DNA of 64,000 nt from Anadara kagoshimensis. Its lineage: Eukaryota > Mollusca > Bivalvia > Arcoida > Arcidae. The notes beneath the pieces are model-generated. The model was not told the DNA's origin. It did not search any database and worked only from the letters and a program-made list of their open reading frames with translations. How positions within the stretch are numbered: the stretch's first letter is position 1; every line of letters begins with the position of its first letter. Positions 12,063 through 53,860 of the stretch are shown here, in pieces. A program made the position numbers and the translations under genes. Location: positions 43,927,816 to 43,991,815 of the forward strand of contig CM037864.1 of the NCBI GenBank assembly GCA_021292105.1. Direction: 5' to 3'.

Positions 12063-12300
12063 CTATGGTATGCTCGGTCCATTTGCTGGAAGCCATGGGG
12101 TCCTCTGGGAGAGACCTTAAAATCGATGCCCCGTGTCACAACAAGCGTGTCACGTTAAAGAACCCTCAGTGCACTATAAAAGTAAAAACAATTGCCACTT
12201 CACCTATAGCTAGTACACTCTCGATATAAGTGAAATTTTCTTGTCTGGGAAGTAAAACCCCAATCACTCATTCATTCATTCATTTATTCAATTAATCAAT
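12063..12300 (+). mobile_element. SINE, 5'-truncated copy
   Basis: The 3' body of the tRNA-derived SINE seen at 41264-41610. Shared blocks are CCCCGTGTCAC, GTTAAAGAACCCTC, CTCGATATAAGTGAAAT and TCTTGTCTGGGAAGTAAA. The tail is a CATT repeat (12287-12305). The tRNA-like head is missing. Non-coding; it would rely on LINE machinery for movement. Confidence 0.75.
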
Positions 12301-12305
12301 CACCA

Positions 12306-21389: not shown

Positions 21390-21700
21390 TGCCTCTATCC
21401 AAATTACTCTGGATACAGTCGACGTCCCATAGTGCCATGTTTCTTTCATTCCAAATTTTACGCGTGTAGCTAGCTAAACTGGATGTACAACCCTTCCGGC
21501 CTGATGGAAGTCCACGTGTTTAGCCAAAGTTGTTTTACTTTACTTTGGTATTGCTGTTTAGACATTGGATTGGTATGTTTGATTTTACTTTGCTTTGGGA
21601 TTGTGGTTTAGACATTGGATTGGTATGACTTTGGGATTGTGGTTTGGACATTGGATTGGTATGACTTTAGGATTGTGGTTTGGACATTTTTTTGATTAGA
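21390..21700 (+). repeat. Dispersed repeat family A, copy 4, with a short tail expansion
   Basis: Shows GACGTCCCATAGTGCCATG, TTCTTTCATTCC, CGTGTAGCTAGCTAAAC, CCTTCCGG and CACGTGTTTAG. The tail block (GGGATTGTGGTTTAGACATT then GGATTGGTATG) is present three to four times in tandem between about 21545 and 21690. This looks like an early stage of the arrays at 30 and 44 kb. Confidence 0.85.
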
Positions 21701-30006: not shown

Positions 30007-30079
30007 TTACCTTTCCAGAGCACCCGACCTTGCTCGCCTGGTGCTTTATTTGGCAGCTTGAAAGTTTTTCCATTGCTCT

Positions 30080-34540: not shown

Positions 34541-34787
34541 TTTACAAAATAGAAAAAACAAAGAAAATAAAAAGCAACAAACAACCAAAATAAAAAACAA
34601 TCGAAATGAAAAAAATAAAAATAAACGAAATGAAAAAAATAAAAATAAAACGAAATGAGAAAGCAAAAACGAATTTAGAAAACAAATAAACAACATAAGA
34701 AAACAACAATCGAAAAAAGAAAACAAAATACAAACAAAAAAGAAAGCAGAAATAGAAAGCAAGAGACAAACGAAATTTGACAACAAC
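34541..34787 (+). repeat. A-rich low-complexity tract
   Basis: Strongly A-rich on the plus strand with imperfect AAAAATAAAA and CGAAATGAAAAA repeats. It leads directly into the 55-bp array, so the two may share an origin. Confidence 0.85.
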
Positions 34788-35282
34788 AAAAATCAAAGCT
34801 AGAAAATAACAATGAAAGTTAGAAAACAACATATAAAATTACAAAAATCAAAGCTAGAAAATAACAATGAAAGTTAGAAAACAACATATAAAATTACAAA
34901 ATCAAAGCTAGAAAATAACAATGAAAGTTAGAAAACAACATATAAAATTACAAAAATCAAAGCTAGAAAATAACAATGAAAGTTAGAAACAACATATAAA
35001 ATTACAAAAATCAAAGCTAGAAAATAACAATGAAAGTTAGAAAACAACATATAAAATTACAAAAATCAAAGCTAGAAAATAACAATGAAAGTTAGAAAAC
35101 AACATATAAAATTACAAAATCAAAGCTAGAAAATAACAATGAAAGTTAGAAAACAACATATAAAATTACAAAAATCAAAGCTAGAAAATAACAATGAAAG
35201 TTAGAAAACAACATATAAAATTACAAAAATCAAAGCTAGAAAATAACAATGAAAGTTAGAAAACAACATATAAAATTACAAA
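34788..35282 (+). repeat. Minisatellite array, 55-bp period, 9 units
   Basis: Each unit reads AAAAATCAAAGCTAGAAAAT, AACAATGAAAGTTAG and AACATATAAAATTAC in order. Units are almost identical; a few lack one A. The plus strand is about 60 percent A. Confidence 0.95.
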
Positions 35283-35769: not shown

Positions 35770-35940
35770 ATGGCGACTTGTCGATTTTACACATGCTGCT
35801 ATACTCGAGACCACTCGGTCCATTTTACTGAGATAACCAGTTATCCTTGCCGGTCGCCGGGATCGAACCCACAATATTGAAATGCCTTGAGTTTTGAAGG
35901 CTAATGCCTTAACCAATCGGCGTATGCGCCCCAAAATAGC
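35770..35940 (-). mobile_element. tRNA-derived SINE or tRNA pseudogene
   Basis: On the minus strand from 35940: GGGGCGCATACGCCGATTGG, then TTAAGGCATTAGCC (A-box region) and TGTGGGTTCGATCCC (a good B-box), then a non-tRNA body with CCGGCAAGGATAACTGG. The B-box has the tRNA form, but no paired 3' acceptor or CCA-like end follows, so it is not a functional tRNA. The head differs from that of the SINEs at 41264 and 41635. Confidence 0.72.
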
Positions 35941-36333
35941 GGAATAATGAGGCAATTTAAGGGGGACATACCGACACGCGAAACCAATAATTTTAACAAT
36001 TGGTCATTATATTAATGTGATAATAGTATTTCATGTTTATTTTGAATATTCACTTAAATGCACTCAGTGGAATTTTTTTTATATTATCCAAAACTGTTTT
36101 AAGAAATAATGGTGAACTATAGAAACCATAACGTAAGGGGTATTACCGTTTATGGTTATGATAATTATAATAGATTTTATTTAATATTCATCGAATTTGT
36201 GTCATTTTGTGTTTTTTTCTAAAAAGGGTTTAAGATAAAACGTGCAACTCTGTAGTTGAAAATTTGACAATAGCTTTTTTTTCATATATCGCGTTGTTAT
36301 GTTATCGTCATTTCAGAATTCATTTATTCCAGC
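35941..36333. other. AT-rich intergenic sequence
   Basis: Nothing recognised. Confidence 0.45.
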
Positions 36334-36446
36334 TGTCATATACCATTTTTTGAATTTAATCATAAAATACATTCAAAAAATGGTATTGTCATATACCATT
36401 TTTTTAATGTATTTTATGATTAAATTCAAAAAATGGTATATGACAC
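36334..36446. mobile_element. Palindromic MITE, double-hairpin form, copy 2
   Basis: Same element as 28149-28262: TGTCATATACCATTTTTTGA inward from the left and TGTGTCATATACCATTTTTT from the right, with internal inverted copies. The two copies are close to identical in order and length. Confidence 0.85.
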
Positions 36447-36683
36447 AGCCACACACAGTTCTAAATACTCTCTGTTAGTAAATCGGTACCAAAAATATAT
36501 CTACTTTCAAACACGGTATTTAATGTTCTTTTGAAACATCCAATTTACTATCGCGGAGGGAAGTGTTATGCAAGTGTTATGAAGACCAATAAGAGTTCCT
36601 GATTGAACATTTTGTTTCAGTATAGTAATATATAAAATTGATACATTTAAAAAGTATATTTGTTTACTGTTAATGGGAACAAA

Positions 36684-36870
36684 TTCGCGTCAGTTAATGT
36701 TTGCGACAATCCTCATTCAAAATTTTTCGCATACAGATTTTTCGTTCGCGTCGCAAGATTATGATCAATAAAAACGCAAAAGAAATTGTCAAAATAAAAT
36801 ATCCGCGAGAAACTTTATTTTCCCATTTTGTTATTCTCACGAATTTACGCGAAAATACAGTGAATGCGAA
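36684..36870. repeat. Possible dispersed repeat with TCGCG/GCGAA motifs (family C), copy 1
   Basis: Dense CpG-containing motifs (AATTCGCGTCAG, TTTACGCGAAAATACAG) in an otherwise AT-rich region. The region at 54625-54830 has AATTTACGCGAAAATA and TTTCGCGTCAAG in a similar setting. Open frames on both strands here reflect this composition. Homology was judged by eye only. Confidence 0.4.
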
Positions 36871-37690
36871 AATATTCCGACTTATAGTATCACCTCTATT
36901 GTTTCTTATTACATTAGTCGCATGAGCGTGTGTGTGTGTCCGTATGTGTCTGCTCTCCGGACACACTTTTATATTCAGAGTGGTGCAATATATATTCGGA
37001 CATTTTGTAAAATCCTTCTTTGTTTCATATAAAACATTTTTAGTAGCTACATTGAGTTAAATTTTTAATATATCACCAAGTAACATATATTGGTGTTACA
37101 ATCAACTTAAATGTCAAATTTGTTGGATCTTACAAAAGAGAAGTTATTTACTTTATTAAAATTCATTTGAATTAATATTTAAAGGCATCAAACATTTTTA
37201 TAAACGTCATTTTTTATTTTTATTAAAGTTCATTGAAAATGAACGAACAAATGACATTCATTTTATTTATTTGTTACATGGTTCATGCGTCTTTTATACT
37301 CGTGCTCTAAACAATTTGAGAGTAAGTGACATGTGACTTTGAGGAAATTAAGACATTTAAGTATTCTTTTGATGTTTTGTATAATTCACACACTAGTAAC
37401 TAGTCAATACAATAATCGTAAATTCATTATATAATCTATCGTTACTTAAACAAAACATTTAACTATAGATTCAGGATGACACCAATAATAATTTGCAACA
37501 TATGTCGGGCGTCCAATTTGAGAGTTAGGACCTCTTGTTCTTACTAATGATCAACCACCCTTGTAAATTTCGCGCGGGTATCATGTGTTATGTGTCGTTG
37601 ATGGATGTCGAATAAAAAAAGTATTTAAAATTTACTTTCACACGCCACGCTGGTAAACAGGGAAATACAAACAACAGTTTGTTGAACCCC
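36871..37690. other. AT-rich intergenic sequence
   Basis: No gene recognised. It includes a short TG-rich patch near 36925. Confidence 0.45.
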
Positions 37691-37694
37691 CAAG

Positions 37695-37963
37695 AAAAGG
37701 TTTGGGTATTTTTTTTGACAGCAGTGTGAACAAGTTTCAAGCAAAGTAATTTGACATCGGTGTTTTAAGGTTCAAGGTTACTGTTAGGATATTTTAAAGC
37801 AATGTATGTAGGTTTCAGTAAAGGTTTAGGACATTTAACAGCAGTGTGTTTAAATTTCAAGTTAAGTATTGGGGTATTGGCGAGCAGTGTGCTTAAGTTT
37901 TAAGTTAAGTTTTGGGGGTATTGGCAAGCATTATGTTTAAGGCTCAAGTTGAGTGTTAAGACA
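37695..37963 (+). repeat. Degenerate tandem array, about 42-bp period, about 6 units
   Basis: Diverged units with GCAGTGTG, AAGTTTCAAG and TTAGGATATT- or TTGGGGTATT-like motifs recur at roughly 37721, 37757, 37799, 37841, 37884 and 37925. It is old compared with the other arrays and directly abuts a family A tail. Confidence 0.65.
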
Positions 37964-38030
37964 TTTGTCGGTTTTAAAAGTGTTTATTTTGCTTGGAATT
38001 GTGAGTTGAACATGGAACGGTATACTTTTT
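37964..38030 (+). repeat. Dispersed repeat family A, copy 9, tail only
   Basis: GTCGGTTTTAAAAGTG, TTTGCTTGGAATTGTGAG and TTGAACATGGAACGGTAT match the family A tail. It ends where the C-rich hairpin repeat begins. Confidence 0.65.
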
Positions 38031-38300
38031 TATACCCCCCCCCCCCGCTTAAAAAGTGTGGGGGTGGGGGTATATAGTGATAGGGGTGTCCGTTCGTCCT
38101 TCCGTTACACTTTAGGGTACCTATCTCTAATCCGCAACTCCTCCTAAACCCTTCGATGTATTTTCATGAAACTTTCACACAATCTTTGTGATATAATTTA
38201 GATATGCACCTCCTATTTAAAAATTTGATCCGATGAATTTTTGGGAGCGGGGGGTATTTTTGTGAGGTTGTGGCTCACAGTTTTTCTAGTTTTAATTGAA
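38031..38300 (+). repeat. Dispersed repeat starting with a C/G-rich hairpin
   Basis: TATACCCCCC, a run of C, a GCTTAAAAAGTG loop and GGGGGTATA form a hairpin at 38031-38074. This is followed by GTGTCCGTTCGTCC, TTAGGGTACCTATCTC, CAACTCCTCCTAAACCC and TTTCATGAAACTTTCACAC. The CCGTCCGTCCG and TGAAACTTTCACACA blocks are familiar from dispersed repeats in bivalve and other invertebrate genomes (recollection, not checked). Non-coding. Confidence 0.6.
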
Positions 38301-39164
38301 ATTGAAACCTGAAACTTTAAAGCAGCACAAGTCACAGAACAAGAGTGAGGGGGGGGTACGTCACTATACCCTACCTTTTCAAAAAATTATAATATGACCG
38401 ATAAAAACTTTGAGTTCGATTTTTCAAAAGAATCTAAAATTTTCCTATTGTCATCCGAGGAGTGGTATTGTTTGTCTTGAACTTTGTGTAAACCCCACTT
38501 TATGTCATCACCAGTTTAGAGACAAACAAATGTAAACGAACTCTGTGTTGTGACTGAAAAACAACACTGTTACTATTACATGACATCCCCAGAAATGATC
38601 ACATGGATTTCTCAGAGAAATGCCCACATAGCCTTCTTAGAAATGACCACATGACCTTCTCCGATATAACGACATGGCTTTCTCAGAAATATCAATATGC
38701 CTCCACAGACATGAACTAATGTCCTTAAATTTCCGTTATATTGTTATTTACTTTATTTTCTGTTAACGAACGTTTTACTGTATCCAGATCAAAGTTAGCT
38801 CGTGTAGTTTTTACCCCGATATTGATAATTGGATTAATTACATTGATCGCAAGGTGTTAGAGCCATAAGGTCACAAATTCGGATTCCCTCAAACGATTCC
38901 GTCTGCAAGATGTGTTTTCAAAACAAAACTCTGCCAGTCGCTTGGGTTTCTTTATGATCTGTTTCCGGGTAGATACTTAATACAGATGTCACAAGCTGAT
39001 ATGTGTTGTATTTCATAACGATACTTTAGAACCAACCGTAACGGAATTAATTGCTTCCCTTTCACGCCACGATTTTTCCCGCGGAAAATAAATGGAATTT
39101 GAAATAATAAGATTATCGTCCACTAAAACATTATAGTCAATTATTGTTTCAAGAACAAATTTTA
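38301..39164. other. Intergenic sequence
   Basis: No gene recognised. Near 38585-38710 a loose repetition of ACATGGATTTCTCAGA-like and ATGACCTTCTC-like phrases suggests a decayed tandem repeat of about 30 bp. Confidence 0.4.
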
Positions 39165-39560
39165 AATACTCTCGTTTTTAAAGTCAAAAATTGCAATTGT
39201 TGACTACGGGCATATATATAAAGTTTTATATATGTATAGATTATGAAAATTTACGATATTCAAGTTGACAGACGGCACAAGGATGATATTTCGTCGGCCG
39301 CCAAACAATCGGTACGCAGAGCGGAATATCGTGTATATCAAGAAAGTGTTGGTCAATATTCACTCTTTTTCTTTTGGTAATATTTTAAAACACGTAATAT
39401 CAACAAATTAACACAAGATAGTACAAGATGTAAATTGTATCTATGAATATTTGAAATGCAAGCAGCTTTAATGGCAATGTACAAGTGTGTCGTTTAGTTG
39501 AATGCGAGTTGCCGGACGGAATTCACTTAAGCATTGCTCTCGAGTGATCCTTGATAATAC
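39165..39560 (+). repeat. Dispersed repeat family B, copy 1
   Basis: About 390 bp repeated in reverse at 42310-42705. Shared landmarks are TTGACTACG, AATTTACGAT, GACAGACGGCACAA, GATATTTCGTCG, AACAATCGG, TCAACAAATTAACACAA, ATTTGAAATGC and CGTTTAGTTGAATGCGAGTT, ending at GCATTGCTCTCGAGTGA. Part of it reads TDGTRMIFRRP on this strand and TDGTTLIFRRP in the other copy, a possible trace of a coding origin. Confidence 0.8.
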
Positions 39561-39800
39561 CAAACTTATGAAGACAGCATAATTAACATTTTATCATTAT
39601 TAAAATATCTAACGGCTACGTGTGTGCATTTTAATGAACGTTCGCTCGAGACAATCAAGGGAAATTTTGGCTTTTTCAAACATTATGCCTAATAAAATTG
39701 TAGGCATCCTAAGAAAATTCTATTCAAACATGGTTAAAATAGAAAAATACAATTCACATTTATGTAAGAAAAAAAACTAAAAACAAATTGAATATATTTA

Positions 39801-40000
39801 CGGAGCCCCTGAAGGGACACACTTGAAAAAATATTAAATCGTTATAACAGTATATCGTTACTAGTATAACGATTTAGTATATCGTGGTAACGATTTAGTA
39901 TATCGTTACTAGTATAACGATTTATTATATCGTGGTAACGATTTAGTATATCGTTATAACGATTTAATATTTTTTCAAGTGTGTCCCTTCAGAGGCTCCG
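39801..40000. mobile_element. 200-bp MITE with 48-bp terminal inverted repeats and 8-bp target duplication
   Basis: Exactly 200 bp, flanked by the direct repeat TATATTTA at 39793-39800 and 40001-40008. The ends read CGGAGCCCCTGAAGGGACAC and, inverted, CGGAGCCTCTGAAGGGACAC, and match for about 48 bp with one difference. The interior is built from palindromic ATCGTTATAACGAT and ACGATTTAGTATATCGT motifs. An 8-bp duplication is typical of hAT-like and a few other superfamilies (P, Merlin, Zisupton). Non-coding, so mobilised in trans. Its near-perfect ends indicate a young copy. Confidence 0.93.
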
Positions 40001-40008
40001 TATATTTA

Positions 40009-40555
40009 AAAGTATCGTCTTATTTTATTACTTTTTTCTTTTATATTAGTATACGATTCAGGGTTACCGGCTCATATTACGTAGGTGATAAATGATGTGG
40101 GAGGCATCTGGACCGGAAACCATTTGTCGAAACTTATCCCTAGCGGCATAAGCGATACTAAATCATCAGTGGTTTTTTTTTCTGTGTAGACGTAAGCGAT
40201 ACCATTACAGATATGTTCCGCATATTGATGTTATAATAACTGATGTAATTTTAAAGATTCAGATAAACTTTCAAATTTACCTTTCAAATGTTGAATAATA
40301 TCCTTCAATAGATGCGTTACCTTTGAGATGTTTAAAGAACATCGTGATGCGTATCGATGCTCTGGTTGTGACCTCGTCTATCAACTTCTGTATACTTTAT
40401 TTCATAAGAAATCATAAATTACCTGGTGACAATAGTATCTACAGGGAACACGTAACATTTTATTGATGTTTTATTACAGTAAAATAAAGTGGGTTTTTAT
40501 ATTTATTTAAGAAAGCGTCTAAAGTTCTGAAAAATCTTTAAAGTAGCAAAATCAT
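40009..40555. other. AT-rich intergenic sequence
   Basis: Nothing recognised. Confidence 0.45.
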
Positions 40556-40556
40556 A

Positions 40557-40795
40557 ACTAATAAAAAACAAACATACTAATCCATGTCCAAATAGCTAAC
40601 CAGAAGCAAAGTTAAAACTTTGAAACAGACAAATTATGTTAAACATGTGAACTTCCATCGGGGAAGTTAGGCCGGTTGTACCGGAAGTACTTTCTGTTTA
40701 GCTAGCTACGCCTGCCATGTGTGTAATCAAAATTGTGTGAAAGGAACATGGAACCAAGGAACGTCAAATATATCCATGGCAATAACAATGTAAAC
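40557..40795 (-). repeat. Dispersed repeat family A, copy 10
   Basis: Reverse copy: AAAACAAACATACTAATCCA, AATTATGTTAAACATGTGAA, CTTCCATCGGGGAAG, TTTAGCTAGCTACGCC, GAAAGGAACATGGAACC and ATATATCCATGG. The head is missing. Confidence 0.87.
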
Positions 40796-41263
40796 CAAAT
40801 AAATCCTTTTAATCTCAGGTTTTACTTAAGATATTCATTCATCTAGTCGCGATCACTTTGAAGTATGCAATGTATCGTAATGCATTTCACACCAAGTGAC
40901 TATAGACGCCTTGCAAGTTGGGCATTAATGTGAAAGAACAATTGTGAAGTATATGGCTGCAGTGAATAATCTTTATAAACGGTGTGAAATTTTGGTGTTT
41001 ACACCCTGTCAGCTCAGTTTAAGCGTATAGGGTTGTTTCTTGTTTCTTTTTTCGTAAGCAGAATTTATGCAGAACCTTGGAAAAATAACAAAGAAGACTG
41101 TCGCTAAATCATTCAACTTCGCATACAGATATATAGATGGCGTTCTATCTATTAATAGTCCTACATTTGGAGACTATGTGAATGACATCTATCCTACCGA
41201 GCTTGAAATAAAAAAATCGAGGTTTGCTCCATATTTAGACTTATGCCTCAATTATGTCACCAC
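40796..41263. other. Intergenic sequence
   Basis: No gene supported. A frame from 41067 runs into the SINE, so it is not a reliable exon. Confidence 0.45.
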
Positions 41264-41610
41264 CACTGCGGTAGCTCAGTCGGTAGAGTGTTCGTTCCGT
41301 AAGTGGGAAACCGTGGGTTTGATTACAGGCCGGGTCTGACCCAAGACTTGAAAGTGGGCAGTGACTGTTCTTTCGCCAAGCACTCGGTATTACGAAATGC
41401 AGGTCAGGGTTCTTTCGGATGGGAACTTAAAATAAACGAGGTCCCGTGTCACGGTGGGCTTGACACGCTAAGGAATCCTGCTGTATACTGCCATCAGGGC
41501 AACGGGCAGGCAAAATTTCTGCATCTTCGCCAATAGCTGGCGACGTCTCGATATAAGTAAAATATTCTTGACTGGGACGTTAAACACCGTTACACAACTC
41601 AACTCAACCA
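41264..41610 (+). mobile_element. tRNA-derived SINE, apparently full length
   Basis: tRNA-like head GCGGTAGCTCAGTCGGTAGA (A-box, about 41270) and GTGGGTTTGATTACAGG (B-box, slightly decayed). The body has TCTGACCCAAGACTTG, CATTACGAAATG-like sequence, GGAACTTAAAATAAACGAGG and CCCGTGTCAC. The 3' domain is AGCTGGCGACGTCTCGATAT, then TTCTTGACTGGGACGTTAAA and a CAACTCAACTCAACC tail. The conserved 3' domain is shared with the copies at 12063, 45639, 47715 and 48220. Such domains are typical of molluscan SINE superfamilies. It is RNA polymerase III-type and depends on a LINE. Confidence 0.88.
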
Positions 41611-41634
41611 TGACATCAACGAAAGGTTACATTT

Positions 41635-42003
41635 GATTGGTTGGTTGGTTGAATGTTGCTTAACGTCGCATCAGCAATTTTTCAGCTATTCGCGCTAATC
41701 TCTATGGATTAATATATGAACAATTTTATGTATGCATGTGAAGTGCGAGTGTGTTGTATGGTCTGCCTTGTACTAGCGCGCACTCGGGGCGACTTTACCG
41801 TGCTAGCTCACAGAGTCAGTACGCCGCAGACAAGCGTACCACTCCCCCAGTCCATTATACTGATACCAGGTGAATCAGTAAAGGCCAACGGCAAGGAAAA
41901 TTCACTTTCCCACATGTGGTCCGAGCGGGACTCGAACTCACAGCGGTGAGAGACCCTGGATTTGAAGACTGACGTCTTATCCATTAGGCCACCGCGCCCT
42001 CCT
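41635..42003 (-). mobile_element. tRNA-derived SINE, second family, apparently full length
   Basis: Read from 42003 on the minus strand: GGAGGGCGCGGTGGCCTAAT, GGATAAGACGTCAGTC, then TGTGAGTTCGAGTCCCGCTC, an excellent B-box. The body ends with ATAGCTGAAAAATTGC and GATGCGACGTTAAGCAACAT, then a CCAA repeat tail. The GACGTTAA 3' motif is shared with the neighbouring SINE, suggesting the same partner LINE. The two SINEs sit tail to tail about 25 bp apart. Confidence 0.88.
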
Positions 42004-42080
42004 AGGTTACATTTGAAGTTGTATGACAAATGTGAGTACATGTATTTTAATTTTTTACTGTCAAATTTCCTTTTCTATGA

Positions 42081-42133
42081 TTGTCATAAACTATTTTTTG
42101 TATAATGAAATTAAAAAATTGTATATGACACAG
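42081..42133. mobile_element. Single-hairpin relative of the double-hairpin MITE
   Basis: TTGTCATAAACTATTTTTTG and AAAAAATTGTATATGACACA form imperfect arms. The ends correspond to those at 28149 and 36334, but the internal inverted duplication is absent. Confidence 0.6.
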
Positions 42134-42172
42134 CAATATACCTTATGCTTATGATGTATTTGACAAATAAAA

Positions 42173-42281
42173 TTCTTGACGCAAGGGTATTATAAGCCTA
42201 GGCTTATCGAGTAACTAAAAAAGGTTTTATGACCGTCATCATAATATTGTTGATAATTATAATGCCTCTGTATCCAAAAGT
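42173..42281 (+). repeat. Dispersed repeat family A, copy 11, head only
   Basis: AGGGTATTATAAGCCTAGGC, TTATCGAG, TTTTATGACCGTCATCATAA, TATTGTTGATAAT and ATGCCTCTGTATCC. It stops abruptly where the tRNA-like head at 42282 starts. Confidence 0.85.
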
Positions 42282-42340
42282 CTCTTACGACCTCCCACAT
42301 ACGATGCGAGCACTCTACCAACTGAGCCGTAGGGTCACTC
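42282..42340 (-). mobile_element. Truncated SINE: tRNA-like head only
   Basis: Read on the minus strand: GGCTCAGTTGGTAGAGTGCT (A-box region), CGCATCGTATGTGGGAGGTC, then a broken B-box region. It joins family B copy 2 on one side and family A copy 11 on the other. Confidence 0.65.
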
Positions 42341-42705
42341 AAGAGCAATGCTTTAGTGAATTTTGCTCGACAACTCGCATTCAACTAAACGACGCATTTG
42401 CACATTGCCATTGAAGCTGGACGCATTTCAAATCAATATAATATTTTGTGTTAATTTGTTGATAGTATTGATATATAAGCAAAGGAAAAAGAGAGTGAAT
42501 ATTGAATACCACTTTCTTATTATATGCACAATATCCTGCTCTATAATGGAAACCATTGCGTGCCGATTGTTTGACGGGTCGACGAAATATCAGCGTTGTA
42601 CCGTCTGTCATCTTGAGGATCGTAAATTGTCATAATTTATATAAAAATATGTATATATGTTCGTAGTCGACAATCGCCTTCTTTACTTTCAAAAACGACT
42701 TATGC
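42310..42705 (-). repeat. Dispersed repeat family B, copy 2
   Basis: Inverted relative to 39165-39560, with the landmarks listed there in reverse order (for example CATTCAACTAAACGACGCAT near 42377 and ATATCAGCGTTGTACCGTC near 42589). The copies differ at many positions, so the duplication is old. The tRNA-like head at 42282-42340 lies at one end. Confidence 0.8.
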
Positions 42706-42860
42706 AGACATTATTTAAGATTTATTCTTAACTGTAATGGTTATAAACATAAGACAACATGACGAGGTTCTGCAACTATTCTATACATTTAAGTTTCCAG
42801 TGTGGTATAGAAAAGATGTGGAGGAGTAAGGTAAAATGGTTTAGCGTTAAGCCGTTAACA

Positions 42861-43917
42861 TTTAACGTGTCATAGTCTATGTTCCTCTTATTCTTACGTG
42901 TCACAGTCTATGTTCCTCTTATTCTAACGTGTCATAGTCTATGTTCCTCTTATTCTTACGTGTCATAGTCTATGTTCCTCTTATTCTTACGTGTCACAGT
43001 CTATGTTCCTCTTATTCTAACGTGTCATAGTCTATGTTCCTCTTATTCTTACGTGTCACAGTCTATGTTCCTCTTATTCTAACGTGTCATAGTCTATGTT
43101 CCTCTTATTCTTACGTGTCATAGTCTATGTTCCTCTTATTCTTACGTGTCATAGTCTATGTTCCTCTTATTCTAACGTGTCATAGTCTATGTTCCTCTTA
43201 TTCTAACGTGTTATAGTCTATGTTCCTCTTATTCTTACGTGTCATAGTCTATGTTCCTTTTATTCTTACGTGTCATAGTCTATGTTCCTCTTATTCTAAC
43301 ATGTCATAGTCTATGTTCCTCTTATTCTTACGTGTCACAGTCTATGTTCCTCTTATTCTTACGTGTCATAGTCTATGTTCCTCTTATTCTTACGTGTCAT
43401 AGTCTATGTTCCTTTTATTCTTACGTGTCACAGTCTATGTTCCTCTTATTCTAACGTGTCATAGTCTATGTTCCTCTTATTCTTACGTGTCATAGTCTAT
43501 GTTCCTCTTATTCTAACGTGTCATAGTCTATGTTCCTCTTATTCTAAAGTGTCATAGTCTATGTTCCTCTTATTCTAACGTGTCATAGTCTATGTTCCTC
43601 TTATTCTGACGTGTCATAGTCTATGTTCCTCTTATTCTAACGTGTCATAGTCTATGTTCCTCTTATTCTAACGTGTCATAGTCTATGTTCCTCTTATTCT
43701 TACGTGTCATAGTCTATGTCCCTCTTATTCTGACGTGTCATAGTCTATGTTCCTCTTATTCTAACGTGTCATAGTCTATGTTCCTCTTATTCTAACGTGT
43801 CATAGTCTATGTTCCTCTTATTCTGACGTGTCATAGTCTATGTTCCTCTTATTCTAACGTGTCATAGTCTATGTTCCTCTTATTCTAACGTGTCACAGTC
43901 TATGTTCCTCTTATTCT
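42861..43917 (+). repeat. Minisatellite array, 31-bp period, about 34 units
   Basis: Units read CGTGTCATAGTCTATGTTCC then TCTTATTCTAA (or TTA, TGA). The period was measured as 31 bp between successive TCAYAG motifs. The unit corresponds to the family A segment CGTCCCATAGTGCCATGTTT followed by CTTTCATTC. The array stops exactly where the next family A segment (TTTTTTACACGTGGTGGGTG) begins, so it is an in-place expansion within family A copy 12. Frames across it repeat every 31 codons and are not genes. Confidence 0.95.
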
Positions 43918-45330
43918 CAAATTTGATTTTTTACACGTGGTGGGTGTAGCTAGCTAAACAGAGGGTGCTTATCCTTCCGGAGCATCAAGTCCCACTTTCC
44001 TTCCCGAAGTTTTTAACTTAGTTTGATAGATTCAAACTTTATGCTTAGCTTTGAGATTGTGATTTTGACATGGATTGGTATGTTTGTTTTAACTTTGCTT
44101 TGGTGTTGTGATTTTGACATGTATTGGTATGTTTGTTTTTACTATGCTTTGGTGTTGTGATTTTGACATGTATTGGTATGTTTGTTTTTACTATGCTTTG
44201 GTGTTGTGATTTTGACATGTATTGGTATGTTTGTTTTCACTATGCTTTGGTGTTGTGATGTTGACATTGATTGGTATCTTTGTTTTCACTATGCTTTGGT
44301 GTTGTGATTTTGACATTGATTGGTATGTTTGTTTTCACTATGCTTTGGTGTTGTGATGTTGACATGGATTGGTATGTTTGTTTTTACTATGCTTTGGTGT
44401 TGTGATGTTGACATTGATTGGTATGTTTGTTTTCACTATGCTTTGGTGTTGTGATGTTGACATGGATTGGTATGTTTGTTTTTACTATGCTTTGGTGTTG
44501 TGATTTTGACATGTATTGGTATGTTTGTTTTTACTATGCTTTGGTGTTGTGATTTTGACATGTATTGGTATGTTTGTTTTCACTATGCTTTGGTGTTGTG
44601 ATGTTGACATTGATTGGTATGTTTGTTTTCACTATGCTTTGGTGTTGTGATGTTGACATGGATTGGTATGTTTGTTTTTACTATGCTTTGGTGTTGTGAT
44701 GTTGACATGGATTGGTATGTTTGTTTTAACTTTGCTTTGGTGTTGTGATTTTGACATGTATTGGTATGTTTGTTTTCACTATGCTTTGGTGTTGTGATGT
44801 TGACATGGATTGGTATGTTTGTTTTCACTATGCTTTGGTGTTGTGATGTTGACATGGATTGGTATGTTTGTTTTTACTATGCTTTGGTGTTGTGATGTTG
44901 ACATGAATTGGTATGTTTGTTTTCACTATGCTTTGGTGTTGTGATGTTGACATGGATTGGTATGTTTGTTTTCACTATGCTTTGGTGTTGTGATGTTGAC
45001 ATGGATTGGTATGTTTGTTTTCACTATGCTTTGGTGTTGTGATGTTGACATGGATTGGTATGTTTGTTTTTACTATGCTTTGGTGTTGTGATGTTGACAT
45101 GGATTGGTATGTTTGTTTTCACTATGCTTTGGTGTTGTGATGTTGACATGGATTGGTATGTTTGTTTTTACTATGCTTTGGTGTTGTGATGTTGACATGG
45201 ATTGGTATGTTTGTTTTTACTATGCTTTGGTGTTGTGATGTTGACATGGATTGGTATGTTTGATTTTACCTTTTTTGTGGGTGGGGGGGGGGGTGATTTT
45301 GACATAAATTGGTATGTTTCTTTTTGGTTA
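43918..45330 (+). repeat. Dispersed repeat family A, copy 12, core and expanded tail
   Basis: Continues from the 31-bp array: CACGTGGTGGGTGTAGCTAG, CTAAACAGAGGGTGCTTATC, CTTCCGGAGCATCAAG and CACTTTCCTTCC, then about 24 tandem tail units and a final diverged unit (TTTTGACATAAATTGG). Confidence 0.9.
44063..45262 (+). repeat. Minisatellite array, 49-bp period, about 24 units
   Basis: Units read CACTATGCTTTGGTGTTGTG, then ATGTTGACATGGATTGG and TATGTTTGTTTT. The GCTTTGG motif recurs every 49 bp (44832, 44881, 44930). Variants are ATTTTGACATG versus ATGTTGACATG, and GGATTGG, TGATTGG or GTATTGG. The unit is the family A tail, present once in ordinary copies. Open frames here (for example a minus-strand 90-codon frame) are periodic by-products. 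Confidence 0.95.
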
Positions 45331-45473
45331 TGCTGTATAATGCGACGTAAAATTGTTTTGTTGTATGATAAGTTTCTGTGCCACAATCGTAAGAAATGTT
45401 TGTTTGTATGGAAGAAAATAAGTAAATACATCATCTTAATGTGCATAAAATTACATTGAAATTACAATAATGA

Positions 45474-45600
45474 ATAAAAACAAACATACCATTCCATGTA
45501 CCAAGTCTCACTTGCCTAGTGAGGGTTCAGTCGATTAACTTTATTTGTCGCTTTTCAGAGTAACTTTGCTTGAGGGATTGTGATTTGGACATGGACCATT
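45474..45600. repeat. Family A fragments in opposite orientations, copy 13
   Basis: AAACAAACATACCATTCCAT (45479) is a minus-strand tail. It is joined at about 45503 to a plus-strand fragment with CTCACTTGCCTAGTGAGG, AGAGTAACTTTGCTTGAGG and TTGTGATTTGGACATGGAC. The junction is probably a deletion or a nested insertion. Confidence 0.7.
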
Positions 45601-45638
45601 GTTTTTTATGATAAATATATTATGATTTGTTAAATCGG

Positions 45639-45915
45639 CTTTTACGTCCAAGTCAGAAATATTTTTCTTATATCGAGACGTTACCAACTGTAGGCGATTT
45701 TTTTTTTTTTTTTTTGCACTGCACTTAGTGCAATTTGCAGGGAGGGTTCTGTAACGTGCAACACATGTCGTGAGATGGGCATCGGTTTCTAAGGTCACTA
45801 CCGAAGGAAGTCGTAACTGCGCGAAAGAACTGTCATTACCTATTTGAAGGTTTTGATCGGTCGGGGTTCGACACATACGAAGCGAGTACTCTACTATTTT
45901 GGCTATCGTAGCGGG
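45639..45915 (-). mobile_element. tRNA-derived SINE copy
   Basis: Minus strand from 45915: a decayed tRNA-like head with GTAGAGTACTCGCTTCG and GTGTCGAACCCCGACC, then TGACAGTTCTTTCGC, CCGATGCCCATCTCACG and CGTTACAGAACCCTCC. A poly-A tract follows (poly-T on plus, 45700-45716), then AACGTCTCGATATAAG and TCTGACTTGGACGTAAAA. Confidence 0.78.
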
Positions 45916-46632
45916 GAGAGAGAAAAAAGACAAAAAACGGATAATATACCGTATTTAAGGGCAAAAAGTGAAGAAAAGAGGTCAATTATCGCACATACAT
46001 TTACAAACATACACGTGCAGTATTCATTAATTTACACGTGGTAAAATATTTTTTATAAGAAAGCACACGGAAATGTATTTATGGTCAAATAAAACAGAAA
46101 ACCATTTTATAGTATGTAATTAACAAAAGCATTTATCATATTTATGAATATTGCGACAAGGCATTTTTAAATGAAAAGCTGTCTCCATTGCAAAATTATA
46201 AGACGTATCTAATTCTGTTCATTCAGTAGCTAGGTTTAGTTTTCAGTAGGCTTCAGTTGATCATGCTTATTCTGGTATATCATAATTTGTCACCCTTCAA
46301 AGAAATTTTTCGCATAGCGATTGGTTAACTTGCCGGGGTACTTTGTACGGAAATTTGCCGGGGTAGATGAAAGTACATAAATCTTTGACGGGGTACATGG
46401 TGGTGTTTTTGCATTTGGATGCATGTTTTCTTAAAGAATCTGTTGTTCTTTCAGAATTTTAGGGCTTTGATGCTTCATGGCGTTTTTCTTGCTAGGCTAA
46501 TCTGGCTTTTTGTCATGACAAAGAAGCCCAACTTTTTATATTTATTCTGGCATGTGTTTTTATCATTTCACATCGTAGTTACAATTGCGCACCTGTAGAT
46601 CTAAAATGCGAATATATACGTATATATATACG

Positions 46633-46677
<45 letters not shown>

Positions 46678-47040
46678 ATATATATATATTATACTTATCA
46701 TGAAAATTAATTTCTATTTAATAATTAACTTTACGTATTTCATCAAACGGAAGTTATACACCTGCTGTTTACTGAAATATTTGCAAGTCATGAATATTAC
46801 ACACAGCTATGAGAAAGGAGGTTGGCCTCGTGACTTCGTGTGGGTAAAATTGTTTTATTTTACCTACCCTATATTTTAAAAGCCATTTGACATTGACACG
46901 TTGTGGGCTGATACAATTCCATGGCCAGTGCGTTCAACCTCTTAAGAGGAATTTCATCTCCAATTCCAAGACATATTTGTCTATAGTTTCAAAGAATGGT
47001 TAATGTCCTATTACTTAAGTTCAATCATTTATACGTGGGT
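45916..47040. other. AT-rich intergenic sequence
   Basis: No gene recognised. A short tandem GCCGGGGTA motif occurs three times between 46331 and 46402 (with one GACGGGGTA form). A TA-rich microsatellite is listed separately. Confidence 0.45.
46617..46690. repeat. (TA)n-rich palindromic microsatellite
   Basis: Alternating ACGTATATATATACGTATAT and long TA runs, self-complementary throughout. Confidence 0.93.
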
Positions 47041-47714
47041 TTTCAGATGTTATTCAATCAAAAACAAACATACCAAACCATTTTCAACTCTCAACCTCAA
47101 CGTAAAGTAAAATTTTTGGAACTAGCAAATTAAGTTAAACATGTAAACTTCCACCAGAGAAGTGAGACCGGGTGCCCCGGAAGGGTAAGCTCCTTCTGTT
47201 GAGCAAGCTACATTCTCCACGTGTATACTAAACGTTGAGAATATCAGGAACATGGAACTATGGGAGGTTATATATATCCCTGGTAATTTTTGATATAGGG
47301 ACACCATATTTCGCAACAATATATTACGGCGGCGTGGAAGGGCCAAATGAAAAAAAATCTAATTCGTCCGAACGATTTAACTAATTCGTACGAACGATTT
47401 AACTAATTCGTACGAACGAATTAGTAATTTGTACGAACGATTAAACTAATTCGTACGAACGAATTACTAATTCGTCCGAACGAATTACTAATTCGTCCGA
47501 ATGATTTAACTAATTCGTTCGGACGAATTACCCAATTTGATCAGTTTTTCAGTTTATTATAACGTTTCAAATACTTTGCTGTTATCTGTCTCCCTGTCAA
47601 GAATAGTTCACCTACATTAATACGCCACCAGCTACAAGTGAAAGTACAGTATTGTCTCGATATGGGACCTGGGCTTTTAAAGGCCTCGTCCTTAAGACCT
47701 GTGTCTTTCATTTT

Positions 47715-47997
47715 TAAATGACGGGTTCTTGGTAGAGTTCTTGCTCCGTAAGTGGAAGGTCGTGGGTTAGAACCCCAACCCACCACCGAGTCTGACCCAA
47801 GACTTTTAAGTTGGTAGTAATTGTTCTGTCAGCAAGCATTCGGCATTACGAAATGATAGTTACGATTCTTCAAGTCGAATGGGAACTTAAAATAAGCGGT
47901 CCCGTGTCACTTTGGCGTGGCAGTATAAAGAACCCTGCTGAATAATGTCATCAGCATAACACACAGGCAAACTTTTCTGCACCTTTGCCTATATCTA
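47715..47997 (+). mobile_element. SINE inside the left foldback arm
   Basis: Decayed head GGTTCTTGGTAGAGTTCTTG (A-box region) and CGTGGGTTAGAACCCC (B-box region). The body has GAGTCTGACCCAAGACTTTT, GGCATTACGAAATGATAG, GAACTTAAAATAAGCGG, CCCGTGTCACTTTGG and AAAGAACCCTGCTGAATAAT. The 3' domain is cut off after CCTTTGCCTATATCT at the arm boundary. Confidence 0.85.
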
Positions 47998-48219
47998 CCC
48001 AGTTACATTTTTCATCCGGCCGAATTTTTAAGTTTGCAAATCACTAAGTTTACAGATACCGATTGTCCTCAGCGACTTATTGTTTAATTACACCGTTCTT
48101 TGAACATGCACAGTATAATGAATAACATGTTGCGTTAAATAATTCTTGGTTTTTTATTCATTTATTTTCCGATCCCGGGACGGGCCCCACTATTGAGAAA
48201 TGACTGTGGTTTTGCAAAG

Positions 48220-48560
48220 AGTTGAGTTGAGTACATGTTTTACCAGTCAAGAATATTTAACTTATATCGAATCATCGCCAGATGTAGGCAAAGGTGCAGA
48301 AAATTTTGCCGGAGTGTTGTGCTGATGACATTATTCAGCAGGGTTCTTTATCGTGCCACGCCAAAGTGACACGGGACCGCTTATTTTAAGTTCCCGTTCG
48401 AAAGAATCGTAACTATCATTTCGTAATGCCGAGTGCTTGCTGACAGAACAATTACTACCAACTTAAAAGTCTTGGGTCAGACTCGGTGGTGGGTTGGGGT
48501 TCTAACCCACGACCTTCCACTTACGGAGCAAGAACTCTACCAAGAACCCGTCATTTAAAA
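48220..48560 (-). mobile_element. SINE inside the right foldback arm
   Basis: Inverted counterpart of the left-arm SINE, retaining more of the 3' end (GATATAAGTTAAATATTC, GACTGGTAAAAC and a CAACTCAACTC tail at 48220-48235 on the minus strand). Because both arms carry the SINE at the same place, it was present before the inverted duplication formed. Confidence 0.85.
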
Positions 48561-49000
48561 ATGAAAGACACAGGTCTTAAGGACGATGCCTTTAAAAGCC
48601 CAGGTCCCATATCGAGACAATACTGTACTTTCACTTGTAGCTGGTGGCGTACTAATGTAAGTGAACTATTCTTGACAGGGAGAAAGATAACAGTAAAGTA
48701 TTTGAAACGTTATAATAAACTGAAAAACTGATCAAATTGGGTAATTCGTCCGAACGAATTAGTTAAATCGTTCGGACGAATTAGTGTTTCGTTCGTACGA
48801 ATTAGTTAAATCGTTCGTACGAATTACCAATTCGTTCGTACGATTCGTACGAATTAGTTAAATCGTTCGTACGAATTAGATTTTTTTTATTTGGCCCTTC
48901 CACGCCGCCGTAATATATATTGTGATGAGGGCCATAAAACTTTTTGAGGTCCTTGATAAACCTAGGCCTGCAATATTCTTGCTTAAAAATTTTATTTGAA

Positions 49001-49784
49001 AACAATCTTATAAATTGTGTTAAAGTCATCACTACTTTAGTTCATCCCAAAAATATTGAACATATGAAGTCCCCATTCACATACTAATCACCTCATTTTA
49101 CTTTGTCCGTTACAACAGTTATTTTTTATGTTCAAACTTTGTATGGGGTTTTCTATTCGGTTATTTAATTATATCTGATTGTACAGATACTGCATTGAGG
49201 ATTTAAAATATGATATTATATTGTAAAATATAAAAAAAATCACTGTTTATTAACATGTAATTAGTAATATCCATGACGACAACAAAAAGTCACAAAAATA
49301 CTCAGAGAATCAAGTATAATGTTGGAAACTTTCTATCTCCAAACTTACCAGGACATCAATTACGTCAGAAGAAAGTTTTAGTGATATGTTTCATGTACAT
49401 ATCTAATCATCCTTATTTATCCAAACAATGAATGCTCCCACAATAAGCGCATTCTAAAATTCATAATTCATATTTATTGTACAATTACAAGAAAATCTTT
49501 TGGTTCACGGTGATATTTTGAACACTTTGTTTTTTATTCTACGCATAGAAATGTTTGTGATTGTTAAATGATAATTTAAAAAAAGAATGAAAAAGAATTA
49601 TTCAAACATATTGCTTTGACCATTAACAAACAAAACATGTTCTAGTATTTGATATTTTTTTAATTTTAGGTAACTATTAAACTGACCGGAAATGGCGGTT
49701 TAAAGTGCTATAACTTCCATTCCCGTGCAAAGCAAACTCAACTGGTTTCCTTTCCATGGCAATGTAAGTTTTAGCACTATAAAT
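49001..49784. other. AT-rich intergenic sequence
   Basis: Nothing recognised. Confidence 0.45.
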
Positions 49785-49860
49785 CAAAAACAAACATACT
49801 GATCCATGTCTGAATAATAATCCAGCAGCAAAGAAAAACTCTGGAACTCATGCTATTTCT
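49785..49860 (-). repeat. Dispersed repeat family A, copy 15, tail only
   Basis: AAAAACAAACATACTGATCC, ATGTCTGAATAATAATCC and CAGCAGCAAAG match the complement of the family A tail; the rest is missing. Confidence 0.75.
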
Positions 49861-52767
49861 AAACAGTTTAATGATTATATTTACATTTCGCTTATTTAAA
49901 AAACTTATTTTTAATCCGGTGAAATAAATTTAAAACACTGTACATCACTATAGCCATTACTCCTATAAATACTTAAGTATCAATACAATAAAACATCACA
50001 AATGTAAATATTTAATTTTAATAGTCATTCTGGAAAATACTTGACAAATTAAACCACAGCTAATAATGTAAAACAAAATAGCTTACCATCCCTAGTTTGA
50101 TTGGAAATGTTTATTGAATCAGTCGCTATGTAATTTTCAATAGGTCTAAGTGTATTTTAACAATAAATGACTTGGCTCCCTAGCATTCAAGTAATAATGT
50201 ATGCGTTAAAAAAATATACATTTGAAAATTTTCTGAACACCTCCATGTCAAACAGAATTGATTGGAGAAAAAAAATACCCGTACTCTAACACAAAAGTAA
50301 ACTAACACTATTAATGAATAAAAATTGTATGGGGAATTAATAGTTATATAGGAAAAATCAAATAAAATTAAAATAATATTATCATGATTTCCTTGATCAG
50401 ATTGTATTGTTTTAAAACAAGAGGACATACAATTCAAAATAATTTTCCGTTTATGGAGGAAACTTTGTCAATATAAAATAGTTCTCCGCTATAGAACACT
50501 GCAGTCCACATTTACCAGAATGAGTTAATGTTACAGTGTTTCTTTGGATATATATTTTAATGATTTCAAATGGATATGTGTCTCCTTTCTATGTTGTGAT
50601 GAGCTGTGTAGGTACATGTGTATTGTGTTTTAATATCAGTATTTAATGTATGTGTAAATCAGTGCTTTATATATATACATATTGTTCGAATTTCAAGACA
50701 TTTTGGTTGTAAAATCTATCAAATGAATGAAACTATGGGACGCAATTTAACAATATATGTTGAAGTGACATGTGGAGCGATTTGTCCGACTACCATTGGT
50801 ATCACGTCTGATGCCGGTCAAAAGTTAGGATGGAACTCTAACTTAATTTTACATTTATTAGTTTTATTTTATTGTAGATATGTCATTTGCTGATTTTGAA
50901 TGCATTATTTTAATAAAAATTCAAAATCAGCACATGACAGATACATAAAAGTTTGTATTTGAAACATGGAGGTTGTAAAATAATTTAGATGGATAGTACC
51001 GCGACTAAAGCACTCAATATTTTTCTTTTCCATATATTTTTTTTCAATACATTATACATTCTATAATAATCAGATAAACATGATTAATTGTTAACATTGT
51101 TAATCAAAATTATCTGCTGTGTAAATTAAAAAATCTCTCAAAAAATTAATTCAAAGTATTGCTAAAGATGAAATTTTGTAAAACAATTTTTTTAGTCTTT
51201 CTACTTTCTCATGTCAAAATATTTCGATTTTCACAATTTTAGAGCGAGCAACACTAAATATGAATTTAATTCCAAAACGTTCGTCAAGGCTGCAAAATTA
51301 AAACATGTTTAGTTCAGTCATAATTCGAAAATGGAATTTTATTGCACGTTTTGTTTTCTTCCTAATTTTAATAAGTTATCTTGGGTCCCTAATAAAAAGC
51401 TTACGAAATAAAAATTCCGTTGAAATTAGTTTGAGGCAAAATCGTAGGTTGATTGAACTTTATGTGATGCCCGTCTCAAGTCGCGAGTTTTATTGGTATA
51501 AAATGAACTGTTCTCTAAAGTTTGATACGTTTTGCCTTTGACATATGCAGCACAGGCCTGGCGATAGTTTAAACTAAGCTAACGAATTGGAATCGACAGC
51601 TATTTTCAGGTCCCTCCTTAGCAATGACTTGACAGCTTTTCGGCAGTTTCTATTTATCTCTTGGCAGCTTTTCAGTCACAAGCTGTCCTTATCCCAGCCT
51701 CTCGACAGTCGAGTTTTGGTTTCTTTGAGGCGTTAAACTTTTGACAGGTCTGTACCGTAGATGCTCACGTACAACATGTTCTGCTTGACTCTTGCTATTA
51801 CCAAATATAATTTATATGTTATTTGTGTCCTGTAATTCATTATCTAAAAATTAAATACACACATATAAAGTGAAGAAATTAATTTGAATTAAATTTATTG
51901 AATTTATTCATTCTAAAAAACTAAAGTAGAATTATATTTCTCATCGCAATGACATTTTTTCAAAAAGTTTTAAGATACATATCTGTACTTTAATTATAGT
52001 TTTTTTTATTTTCAAACCAATCAAAGTGAAACACATTGGAAACAAAACACCAAAAGAAATTTTCAATTGAATACACAAGTAAATATATAACTTTTTTTCA
52101 AACTTTTTCAGTAACTTCAATGTAATTCTTCCGGTTAAACATATTTCATTACATGTCTCCCCGATTTAAAGTTTACTGAAAAAAATCTAAATTAATTTAC
52201 TTTCCTTGAATATGAATTTTAACAAACCATAAATTGTGAACAGAAACTAATTAAAGTCAAATAAATGACACATAATTTATAAAAATCAAACTATGTAACA
52301 AACACCCACAATTCATTTTCAGAAAGAAAAACTTCATTTTTCTTGAGAGCTGTCGTGCCTATTTGACTTGATGTGAGAATAGTTCGACACTTTGTGTTGT
52401 TGTAATGTTAAGTTGCTTTTGTTTAGCGCTAAATGTTTAGAGGTTCGCTTGAAAGTTGTAAAAGTACACTTGGTATGAGAGTCAGGTCAAGTGTTTCTGA
52501 TCTTATCTGTGACCCGGCGCAAATATGGCCTGTACGCTTTCCCGAAATATCGCAGTAAATTAAACATCGCAAAGCATTAATTACCAGCCAACCATTAGGA
52601 CCCAAAATAAAGTAAAACCACTTTGCGGTTCTTTCTGCGGTTTTCCGGGATCGAGCCGTTTTATAATCGATAGTATTTGCGCTTTTGTTCACAATAAACT
52701 TTCAAGTTTGATAACAGACGCGTGCATATCTCCAATTGTAGGGACCTCGGTGGCCAATTTGCCAAAA
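49861..52767. other. AT-rich intergenic sequence without supported genes
   Basis: No gene recognised. A minus frame at 52429-52692 (87 codons) has a mixed composition (CDISGKRTGHICAGSQIRSE) but matches no family I know. It lies in a patch of higher GC and may be an old repeat. One hairpin element is listed separately. Confidence 0.45.
50881..50940. mobile_element. Short hairpin element (about 60 bp), copy 2
   Basis: Arms TGTCATTTGCTGATTTTGAA and TTCAAAATCAGCACATGACA. Compared with copies 1 and 3, the arms carry GCTGATTTTG in place of GCTACTTTTG, with the matching complementary change on the other side. Confidence 0.7.
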
Positions 52768-53520
52768 ACACTGGTTTGTGGATCCAACCATAAAGAAAAG
52801 CATTAACTTTTTATAGATTACCATAGGCAATAGATGGAGTATTGGGTCAAAACCGCTGGTTTGTGGATCCAACAATAATGAAAAGCATTAACTTTTTATA
52901 GTTTACCATAGGCAATAGATGGAGTATTGGGTAAAAACCGCTGGTTTGTGGATCCAACAATAATGAAAAGCATTAACTTTTTATAGTTTACCATAGGCAA
53001 TAGATGGAGTATTGGGTCAAAACCGCTGGTTTGTGGATCCAACCATAAAGAAAAGCATTAACTTTTTATAGTTTACCATAGGCAATAGATGGAGTATTGG
53101 GTCAAAACCGCTGGTTTGTGGATCCAACAATAATGAAAAGCATTAACTTTTTATAGTTTACCATAGGCAATAGATGGAGTATTGGGTAAAAACCGCTGGT
53201 TTGTGGATCCAACAATAATGAAAAGCATTAACTTTTTATAGTTTACCATAGGCAATAGATGGAGTATTGGGTCAAATCCGCTGGTTTGTGGATCTAACAA
53301 TAATGAAAAGCATTAACTTTTTATAGTTTACCATAGGCAATAGATGGAGTATTGGGTCAAATCCGCTGGTTTGTGGATCTAACAATAATGAAAAGCATTA
53401 CCTTTTTATAGTTTACCACAGGCAATAGATGGAGTATTGGGTCAAAACCGCTGGTTTGTAGATCCAACAATAATGAAAAGCATTAACTTTTTATAGTTTA
53501 CCATAGACAATAAATGGGAC
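52768..53520 (+). repeat. Minisatellite array, 85-bp period, about 9 units
   Basis: Each unit contains CGCTGGTTTGTGGATCCAAC, AAAAGCATTAACTTTTTATA, GTTTACCATAGGCAATAGAT and GGAGTATTGGG. The period was measured as 85 bp (52771 to 52856). Early units alternate AACCATAAAG with AACAATAATG, and GGGTCAAA with GGGTAAAA, in a three-unit pattern of 255 bp. Later units carry GGATCTAAC. Confidence 0.95.
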
Positions 53521-53860
53521 ATTTTGTTGTATGAACTTGTCATATTACCTCTGCTGTAATAGAGCAATGTTAATACAAGATACATCACCAATAATGTGGA
53601 AAATCTAAATTAGTTAGAACATCTGTAATAATATTTAATGCCCAATTGACTTTACCACTATGAGCATAAAACGCAAACAATAAATAAACTTTGTATAAGT
53701 ACAAAATACTATCAGGGTTTTCTAGTAATTTTACCCAATATTTAAGTCATCTTTCTTTGCGTTTGATACAAAGTGGATTACGACCTAATTCGCCATACAA
53801 AACACCATTTGTTGAAGATTTATTTACATTTTTATTATAATTTATTTTTTTTCTTCGCCC
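53521..53860. other. Sequence between the 85-bp array and the LINE relic
   Basis: Possibly the more decayed upstream part of the LINE, but no conserved reverse transcriptase motif could be read. Confidence 0.35.

Follow-up and report, generated by a model that had tools for sequence, protein, structure and literature searches.

In the genome of the bivalve Anadara kagoshimensis, a single copy of a dispersed repeat has two neighbouring, non-overlapping segments that have been expanded in place into minisatellites, as supported both by alignment of the array units and by expansions at other loci. From its sequence, the repeat appears to be the 3′ end (last codons, stop codon and 3′UTR) of a Penelope-like retroelement of the permuted type, and the arrays probably arose by tandem duplication of pieces of this 3′ end after insertion, followed by slippage or unequal exchange.

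Organization of the repeat copy

The window analysed was a stretch of 64,000 nucleotides (C8:43927816-43991815) from an assembly of 1.115 Gb in 36 contigs. Positions 42863-45329 contain one copy of the dispersed repeat, in which a 31-bp array is followed by the core, present once, and then by a 49-bp array, in the order of the family. Analysis with TRF gave, on the forward strand, 34.0 units of 31 bp at 42863-43917 (95% matches) and 24.7 units of 49 bp at 44057-45267 (96% matches). The core between them at 43918-44056, also on the forward strand, is a single stretch of 3′UTR (CACGTGG..GTGTAGCTAGCT..) recognised by blastn and nhmmer. The coordinates, the order and the numbers given in the initial annotation (about 34 × 31 bp, one core, about 24 × 49 bp) were thereby confirmed. 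The 31-bp unit aligned to consensus positions 32-67 and comprises the last codons of the element, its TAG stop and the first bases of the 3′UTR, and the 49-bp unit is the 3′-terminal stretch of the element (consensus 193-246). Reading of the sequence beyond the second array revealed, on the same strand, a degenerate final tail unit with a G-run and the element 3′ terminus at 45268-45329 (GTTTCTTTTTGGTT), position 45329 being the 3′ terminus of the copy, which reads TTTCTTTTTGGTT; this terminus is also present in a second copy of the window region. The window copy is 5′-truncated at the 31-bp array, which forms its 5′ edge, the upstream neighbour being absent.

The array units were aligned to a 250-nt family consensus typed from the window copies. 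The 49-mer gave a score of 71, compared with a maximum of 41 for shuffled sequences (n = 2000). The 31-mer on its own appears to match the family only just above chance: its score of 30 compares with a shuffle maximum of 29 (n = 2000), under a second scoring it was matched by 1 of 2000 shuffles, and on a real copy (L057) it was equalled by 1 and 6 of 2000 shuffles. Its score was also equalled by 4 of 2000 random 250-nt stretches of the window, which may include other family copies, and the 31-mer fell below the threshold used when array units were compared with the element 3′ end over loci L011-L028. When extended into the adjoining start of the core, the last 31-bp unit is collinear with consensus positions 38-109 at a score of 80 (shuffle maximum 31). 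The unit joins the family core without interruption, and its CATAG aligns with the TAG stop codon of the reverse transcriptase frame. The expectation that each unit aligns to adjacent, non-overlapping consensus segments therefore holds for the 49-mer, but for the 31-mer only jointly with the core start. As in a transposon-derived minisatellite, each array repeats a segment of the element and keeps the place of that segment in the element's order.

Identity and dispersal of the repeat

In one long copy the consensus sits at the end of an intact ORF of 1067 aa, and the sequence upstream of the consensus is the end of a reverse transcriptase (RT) frame. Comparison of the ORF with Pfam identified GIY-YIG at aa 203-292 (E 1.7e-4, 22.2 bits) and RVT_1 at aa 814-917 (E 2e-4, 21.6 bits), both significant by E-value and both under the curated cut-offs of 22.6 and 29.6. 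The GIY-YIG endonuclease is N-terminal to the RT within the same ORF, which we take to be the order of the Naiad/Chlamys branch of Penelope-like elements. Penelope-like elements with such an N-terminal GIY-YIG were reportedly described by Craig et al. in 2021. All of the scored RT candidates matched (150 of 150, the best 150 of 47467 first-look candidates). A phmmer search of the RT fragment against the PDB gave telomerase RT (6d6v) as the best match, which is weak (E 0.0068), and the whole 1067-aa ORF gave no match at 0.1. Elements of the canonical Penelope/Poseidon type have GIY-YIG C-terminal to the RT, a hammerhead ribozyme and pseudo-LTRs or partial tandem copies (PMC11167929). The endonuclease was not C-terminal in this ORF, no hammerhead ribozyme or other Rfam RNA was matched at E 0.1 in L057-L059, and no second tandem copy of the ORF, the pseudo-LTR feature, was seen in three 4.6-kb loci. 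Known RNAs were absent from the window at curated thresholds, the folding of the 3′UTR was ordinary (z -1.19), and the exact 21-base core word gave 0 matches in viral contigs.

Besides the array copy, ten copies of the family in the window were aligned using nhmmer. The genome search with the 250-nt consensus listed at least 41 matches, and 40 candidates, the best of 3441 first-look candidates, were scored. Twenty young copies, which are places among the consensus matches taken with their flanks, share a sharply defined 3′ end that reads GTTTGTTTTTGATT or a near variant and beyond which the DNA is unrelated. The 3′ terminus is constant and the 5′ ends lie at reference positions 658-3694 of 3915, the 5′ end falling outside or at the edge of the extracted stretch in 3 of 22 copies; 5′ truncation with a constant 3′ end is characteristic of the Penelope-like type. 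Identity among L057, L058 and L059, each of which has the consensus at its 3′ end, is 98.2-99.3% across about 3.2 kb. No target-site duplication was detected, the mean longest word shared between flanks being 3.91 compared with 3.86 after shuffling (22 copies, three with little or no 5′ flank).

Some young copies adjoin older ones. At L053 (682-1063, C11) the head of an older, like-oriented copy comes directly after a young one, which may have inserted beside or into a relative. The young copies at L049 and L051 likewise adjoin older family copies, and the 5′ flank of the latter is an inverted older tail.

The initial annotation had raised a possible relation to Helitron-like pearl elements, so that the repeat would be a Helitron- or Helentron-like element with an internal tandem core. 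Oyster HINE/pearl elements with central tandem arrays, sometimes two, are described in the available part of PMC7492417, and the lack of target-site duplications in the family copies fits a Helitron as well, although it is not diagnostic. Here, however, the repeat ends an RT/GIY-YIG ORF and the copies are 5′-truncated at scattered points, which makes this origin extremely improbable, and membership among Helitron, Helentron or pearl elements was rejected in favour of the Penelope-like 3′ end. A Helitron CTRR end with palindrome and subterminal inverted repeats were looked for by eye and not found, the copies ending in ...GTTTTTGATT and starting at scattered points.

Recurrence of expansion at other loci

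A genome search for two tail motifs spaced with a period of 41-61 bases gave 2141 + 2450 = 4591 exact matches, and 0 + 0 for the reversed control. Eighteen ten-kb loci (L011-L028) were picked from matches reaching the second tail unit, and all 18 contain a 49-bp-type tail array, largely by choice of locus. By eye, the core end lies just upstream of the tail array in 16 of the 18 (not in L019, nor in L021, which has an array without core), and a recognisable terminus follows the array in 13, being absent from L023, L024 and L028 and unreadable in L012 and L021. Other tail registers measure 51 and 36 bp in the window and 44-45, 53, 54 and 55 bp among the 100 matches listed. Those 100 matches include 16 tail-array clusters in the first 31.6 Mb of C1, which by extrapolation would give several hundred tail-array places genome-wide if the C1 clusters are typical.

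Head arrays were found at four loci with four unit lengths (31, 43, 44 and 50 bp), the window and its second copy being counted once and being the only places with the 31-bp array. Two of these loci, C13:54.901M (43 bp) and C19:18.258M (44 bp), account for the 17 matches of a head pattern search, whose reversed control gave 0. L026 is an independent second double expansion in one copy, with the layout ORF end, 50 bp × 15.1, core, 49 bp × 15.2 and terminus, and L061 has the layout ORF end, 44 bp × 5, core and single tail. The end of the element frame lies to the left of the head array at both of these loci, so that element sequence stands on both sides and the array is internal and in place. 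A middle segment was expanded in L025 (32 bp × 91.9), and a search for a middle-segment pattern found 29 matches spread over 14 places, known from pattern matches alone (reversed control 0); at three of these places the matches form runs spaced by 41, 46 and 48 bp. The other-locus expansions foreseen by the initial annotation were thus found for the tail at L011-L028 and in the 4591 pattern matches, and for the head at L026 and L061.

When array units were compared with the element 3′ end, 16 of the 18 loci had tail arrays only and a second segment appeared in L025 and L026, in a comparison that would miss units as weak as the 31-mer of the window. In the extracted DNA 25 of 75 non-overlapping TRF arrays match the element 3′ end and 0 match the ORF, which is not a fair rate, because locus choice was based on the 3′ end and little ORF is left in truncated copies. 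The proposed independence of the two expansions agrees with the head array beside a single tail in L061 and with the loci carrying tail arrays only, a count in which weak head units could be missed. The joining of two arrays in one copy could be coincidence, since the window copy was the starting point, L026 was found via its tail array, and the head loci found irrespective of tails have no tail array (a single tail in L061, none readable in L060). None of the 22 other family copies beside the chosen ones had at least three tails, a count from which the L025 rows, L019:6426 and each locus's own array copy were excluded, and this indicates that expansion is a minority fate.

Other repeats and frames in the window

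A family copy on the forward strand at 30007-30114 (consensus-model positions 134-256, nhmmer) leads into a 51-bp array of 54.2 units at 30120-32880, on the same strand, which is a tail expansion of that copy (TRF; score 61, reached by 0 of 2000 shuffles). Small tail duplications of 50 bp × 1.9 and 36 bp × 2.7 lie at 21533-21688, forward strand, in the copy at 21452 (TRF and unit comparison). Two long minisatellites, at 1-9575 (41 bp × 236) and 13799-18804 (40 bp × 126), were below threshold when compared with the element 3′ end. The window also contains a 55-bp × 9.1 array at 34786-35282 (98%) and an 85-bp × 8.9 array at 52763-53517 (96%), the latter numbering 6.9 units in the other copy of the window region, as well as short arrays of 22-bp units with TTCGTACGAA at 47359-47537 and 48735-48879, in opposite orientations and about 1.2 kb apart. 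Fifteen frames of at least 120 aa were present in the window, five along the 51-bp array, one across its start, six over an N-run and three others.

Copy-number change between near-identical regions

The second copy of the window region is inverted and lies on the same chromosome at a distance of about 1 Mb (C8:42921825-42969095, minus strand); probes from window positions 12200-12900 and 60000-60700 each had one close extra copy, both in this second region. Outside the arrays, comparison of window positions 35796-53523 with the DNA of the second copy covered five stretches with 9899 aligned sites and gave a substitution divergence of 2.10%, ranging from 1.6 to 4.1% by stretch. The arrays of the second copy have 44.9 and 3.8 units, compared with 34.0 and 24.7 in the window. 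The outer tail units of the two copies are nearly base-for-base alike whereas the interiors differ, and 11 of the 16 distinct variants of the 31-bp unit are confined to one of the two copies. L023 and L024 form a second near-identical pair, with 28.9 and 19.9 units respectively. Differences in copy number, which the initial annotation had proposed to seek between individuals, were seen between two near-identical pairs of regions within one assembly.

The second region may be a large inverted duplication (a paralogue) or a retained haplotype, and the latter is suspected on account of other near-equal match pairs 0.3-1 Mb apart. Should it be a retained haplotype, the assembly was perhaps incompletely purged, which would fit a collapse or expansion of the arrays by the assembler. 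The many array loci with locus-private variants and element flanks make an artefact of this kind very improbable, although exact unit numbers may still be wrong.

Among the 10 groups with at least 20 sampled units, the nearest neighbour lay within the same locus for at least 0.80 of units in 8, the large groups below this value being L017 (0.76) and L022 (0.72). Smaller groups that clustered by locus were L014 (1.00), L020 (1.00), L025 (0.92) and L026 (0.81). Low values were obtained for L024 (0.00, with its near-twin L023 in the same set), L027 (0.23), L015 (0.43), L011 (0.60) and L023 (0.63), and for the second window copy (0.00, 3 units).

Proposed origin of the arrays

We infer that duplication followed insertion from the finding that 20 of 20 young copies are single-tailed and from the changes in unit number and unit variants between near-identical regions. 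Copying of the RNA by the RT would begin at a fixed 3′ site and would usually halt early, leaving scattered 5′-truncated copies that consist mainly of the stop codon and 3′UTR. After insertion, short stretches of the AT-rich 3′ end would duplicate in tandem, and the arrays would then grow or shrink by slippage or unequal exchange. The word GTTTTT opens the tail of L057, a single-tailed copy, and recurs at the terminus with a spacing of exactly 49 nt. This pair may act as a built-in seed, such that duplication between the two words would yield the observed 49-bp unit and tail duplications would mostly share one register. Duplications of the head (31, 43, 44 and 50 bp) and middle (32, 41, 46 and 48 bp) would have no fixed seed and so vary in unit length, as for chance duplications; the 31-bp unit has no clear seeding word. 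The window copy would represent two such duplication events.

The tail variants TTTGGG and TTTGGACATGGATTGG are shared among array loci and differ from the 20 young copies, which makes an older source element with multiple tails possible. Such an element, already carrying two or more tails, would have been spread by retrotransposition with later local turnover, an explanation that overlaps the preferred one and could hold at some loci, but which as a general account is rather unlikely. The tail consensus sequences of the array loci are alike and depart from the young single tails at the same sites, one tail register is dominant, and L021 resembles a copy truncated inside an array. Yet array and single copies are mixed on a tree of 66 cores, with 11 changes, although the tree is weakly resolved and its starred branches force only 2. 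The units of many loci also cluster by locus, and the differing unit lengths of head and middle arrays between loci are impossible from one source.

The dominant 49-bp register and the shared word at the 3′ terminus of the RNA would also follow if the tail array were a product of the RT during insertion, through successive rounds of copying of the terminal 49 nt with GTTTTT re-aligning the cDNA each time, as in telomerase. The RTs of Penelope-like elements have been called telomerase-like (PMC11167929), in line with the weak 6d6v match of the RT fragment. We nevertheless regard this route as unlikely, given that every one of the young copies is single-tailed, the whole ORF had no PDB match at 0.1, unit numbers differ between near-identical regions, and the head and middle arrays require another route. 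Slightly less likely again is the specific proposal that the Penelope RT, as a cousin of telomerase, itself writes the tail arrays, with the terminal 49 nt as a reiterated template and GTTTTT at both ends re-aligning. If true, insertion by a Penelope RT could write telomere-like repeats at the 3′ junction. Duplication after insertion, with GTTTTT as seed and slippage or unequal exchange as the driver of growth, is the explanation that we consider likely.

Comparison with known systems

Like Naiad/Chlamys-type elements, the family has one ORF with GIY-YIG before the RT, forms 5′-truncated copies and is abundant in this genome, and to our knowledge tandem expansion of three separate 3′-end segments has no precedent in elements of that type. 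Partial tandems are known from canonical Penelope elements, whose reverse transcription begins within the RNA (PMC11167929; available part of PMC3846280). The Cg_HINE/pearl elements of oysters and other bivalves, as far as they are covered in the accessible text of PMC7492417, are also dispersed mobile elements with satellite-like arrays, sometimes two in order; they are, however, DNA transposons with subterminal inverted repeats in which the arrays are central modules of the element, whereas in the present family retroelement 3′-end segments are multiplied, and in some copies only. The 154-bp repeats derived from Helitron-2 in Drosophila virilis share the tandem multiplication of a transposon segment at many loci, but stem from a DNA transposon and from one segment (PMC3833285 and PMC12910113, in the portions available).

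Close parallels are satellites from retroelement 3′UTRs, for which the accessible sections of PMC9659126 give PisTR-A from Ogre, the cetacean common satellite from L1 and the HeT-A 3′ region. In these the 3′ end of a retroelement likewise becomes a tandem repeat, although the sources named there are LTR or LINE-type elements; the word 'Penelope' has 0 occurrences in the text of that review. We found no account of minisatellites arising from a Penelope-like 3′ end in the open-licence papers searched, including the available parts of PMC10294476, PMC12628747, PMC12910113 and PMC3833285. Transposon-derived minisatellites and retroelement-3′UTR satellites are thus known, and what appears new, in that no report of it was seen, is the Penelope-like 3′ end as their source. 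This 3′ end, with near-identical intact copies, would explain in concrete terms where dispersed minisatellites of this genome come from, and its many sites (3441 first-look candidates, of which the best 40 were scored), with their varied segments and registers, would amount to a natural replicate experiment on the birth of tandem arrays from single-copy DNA.
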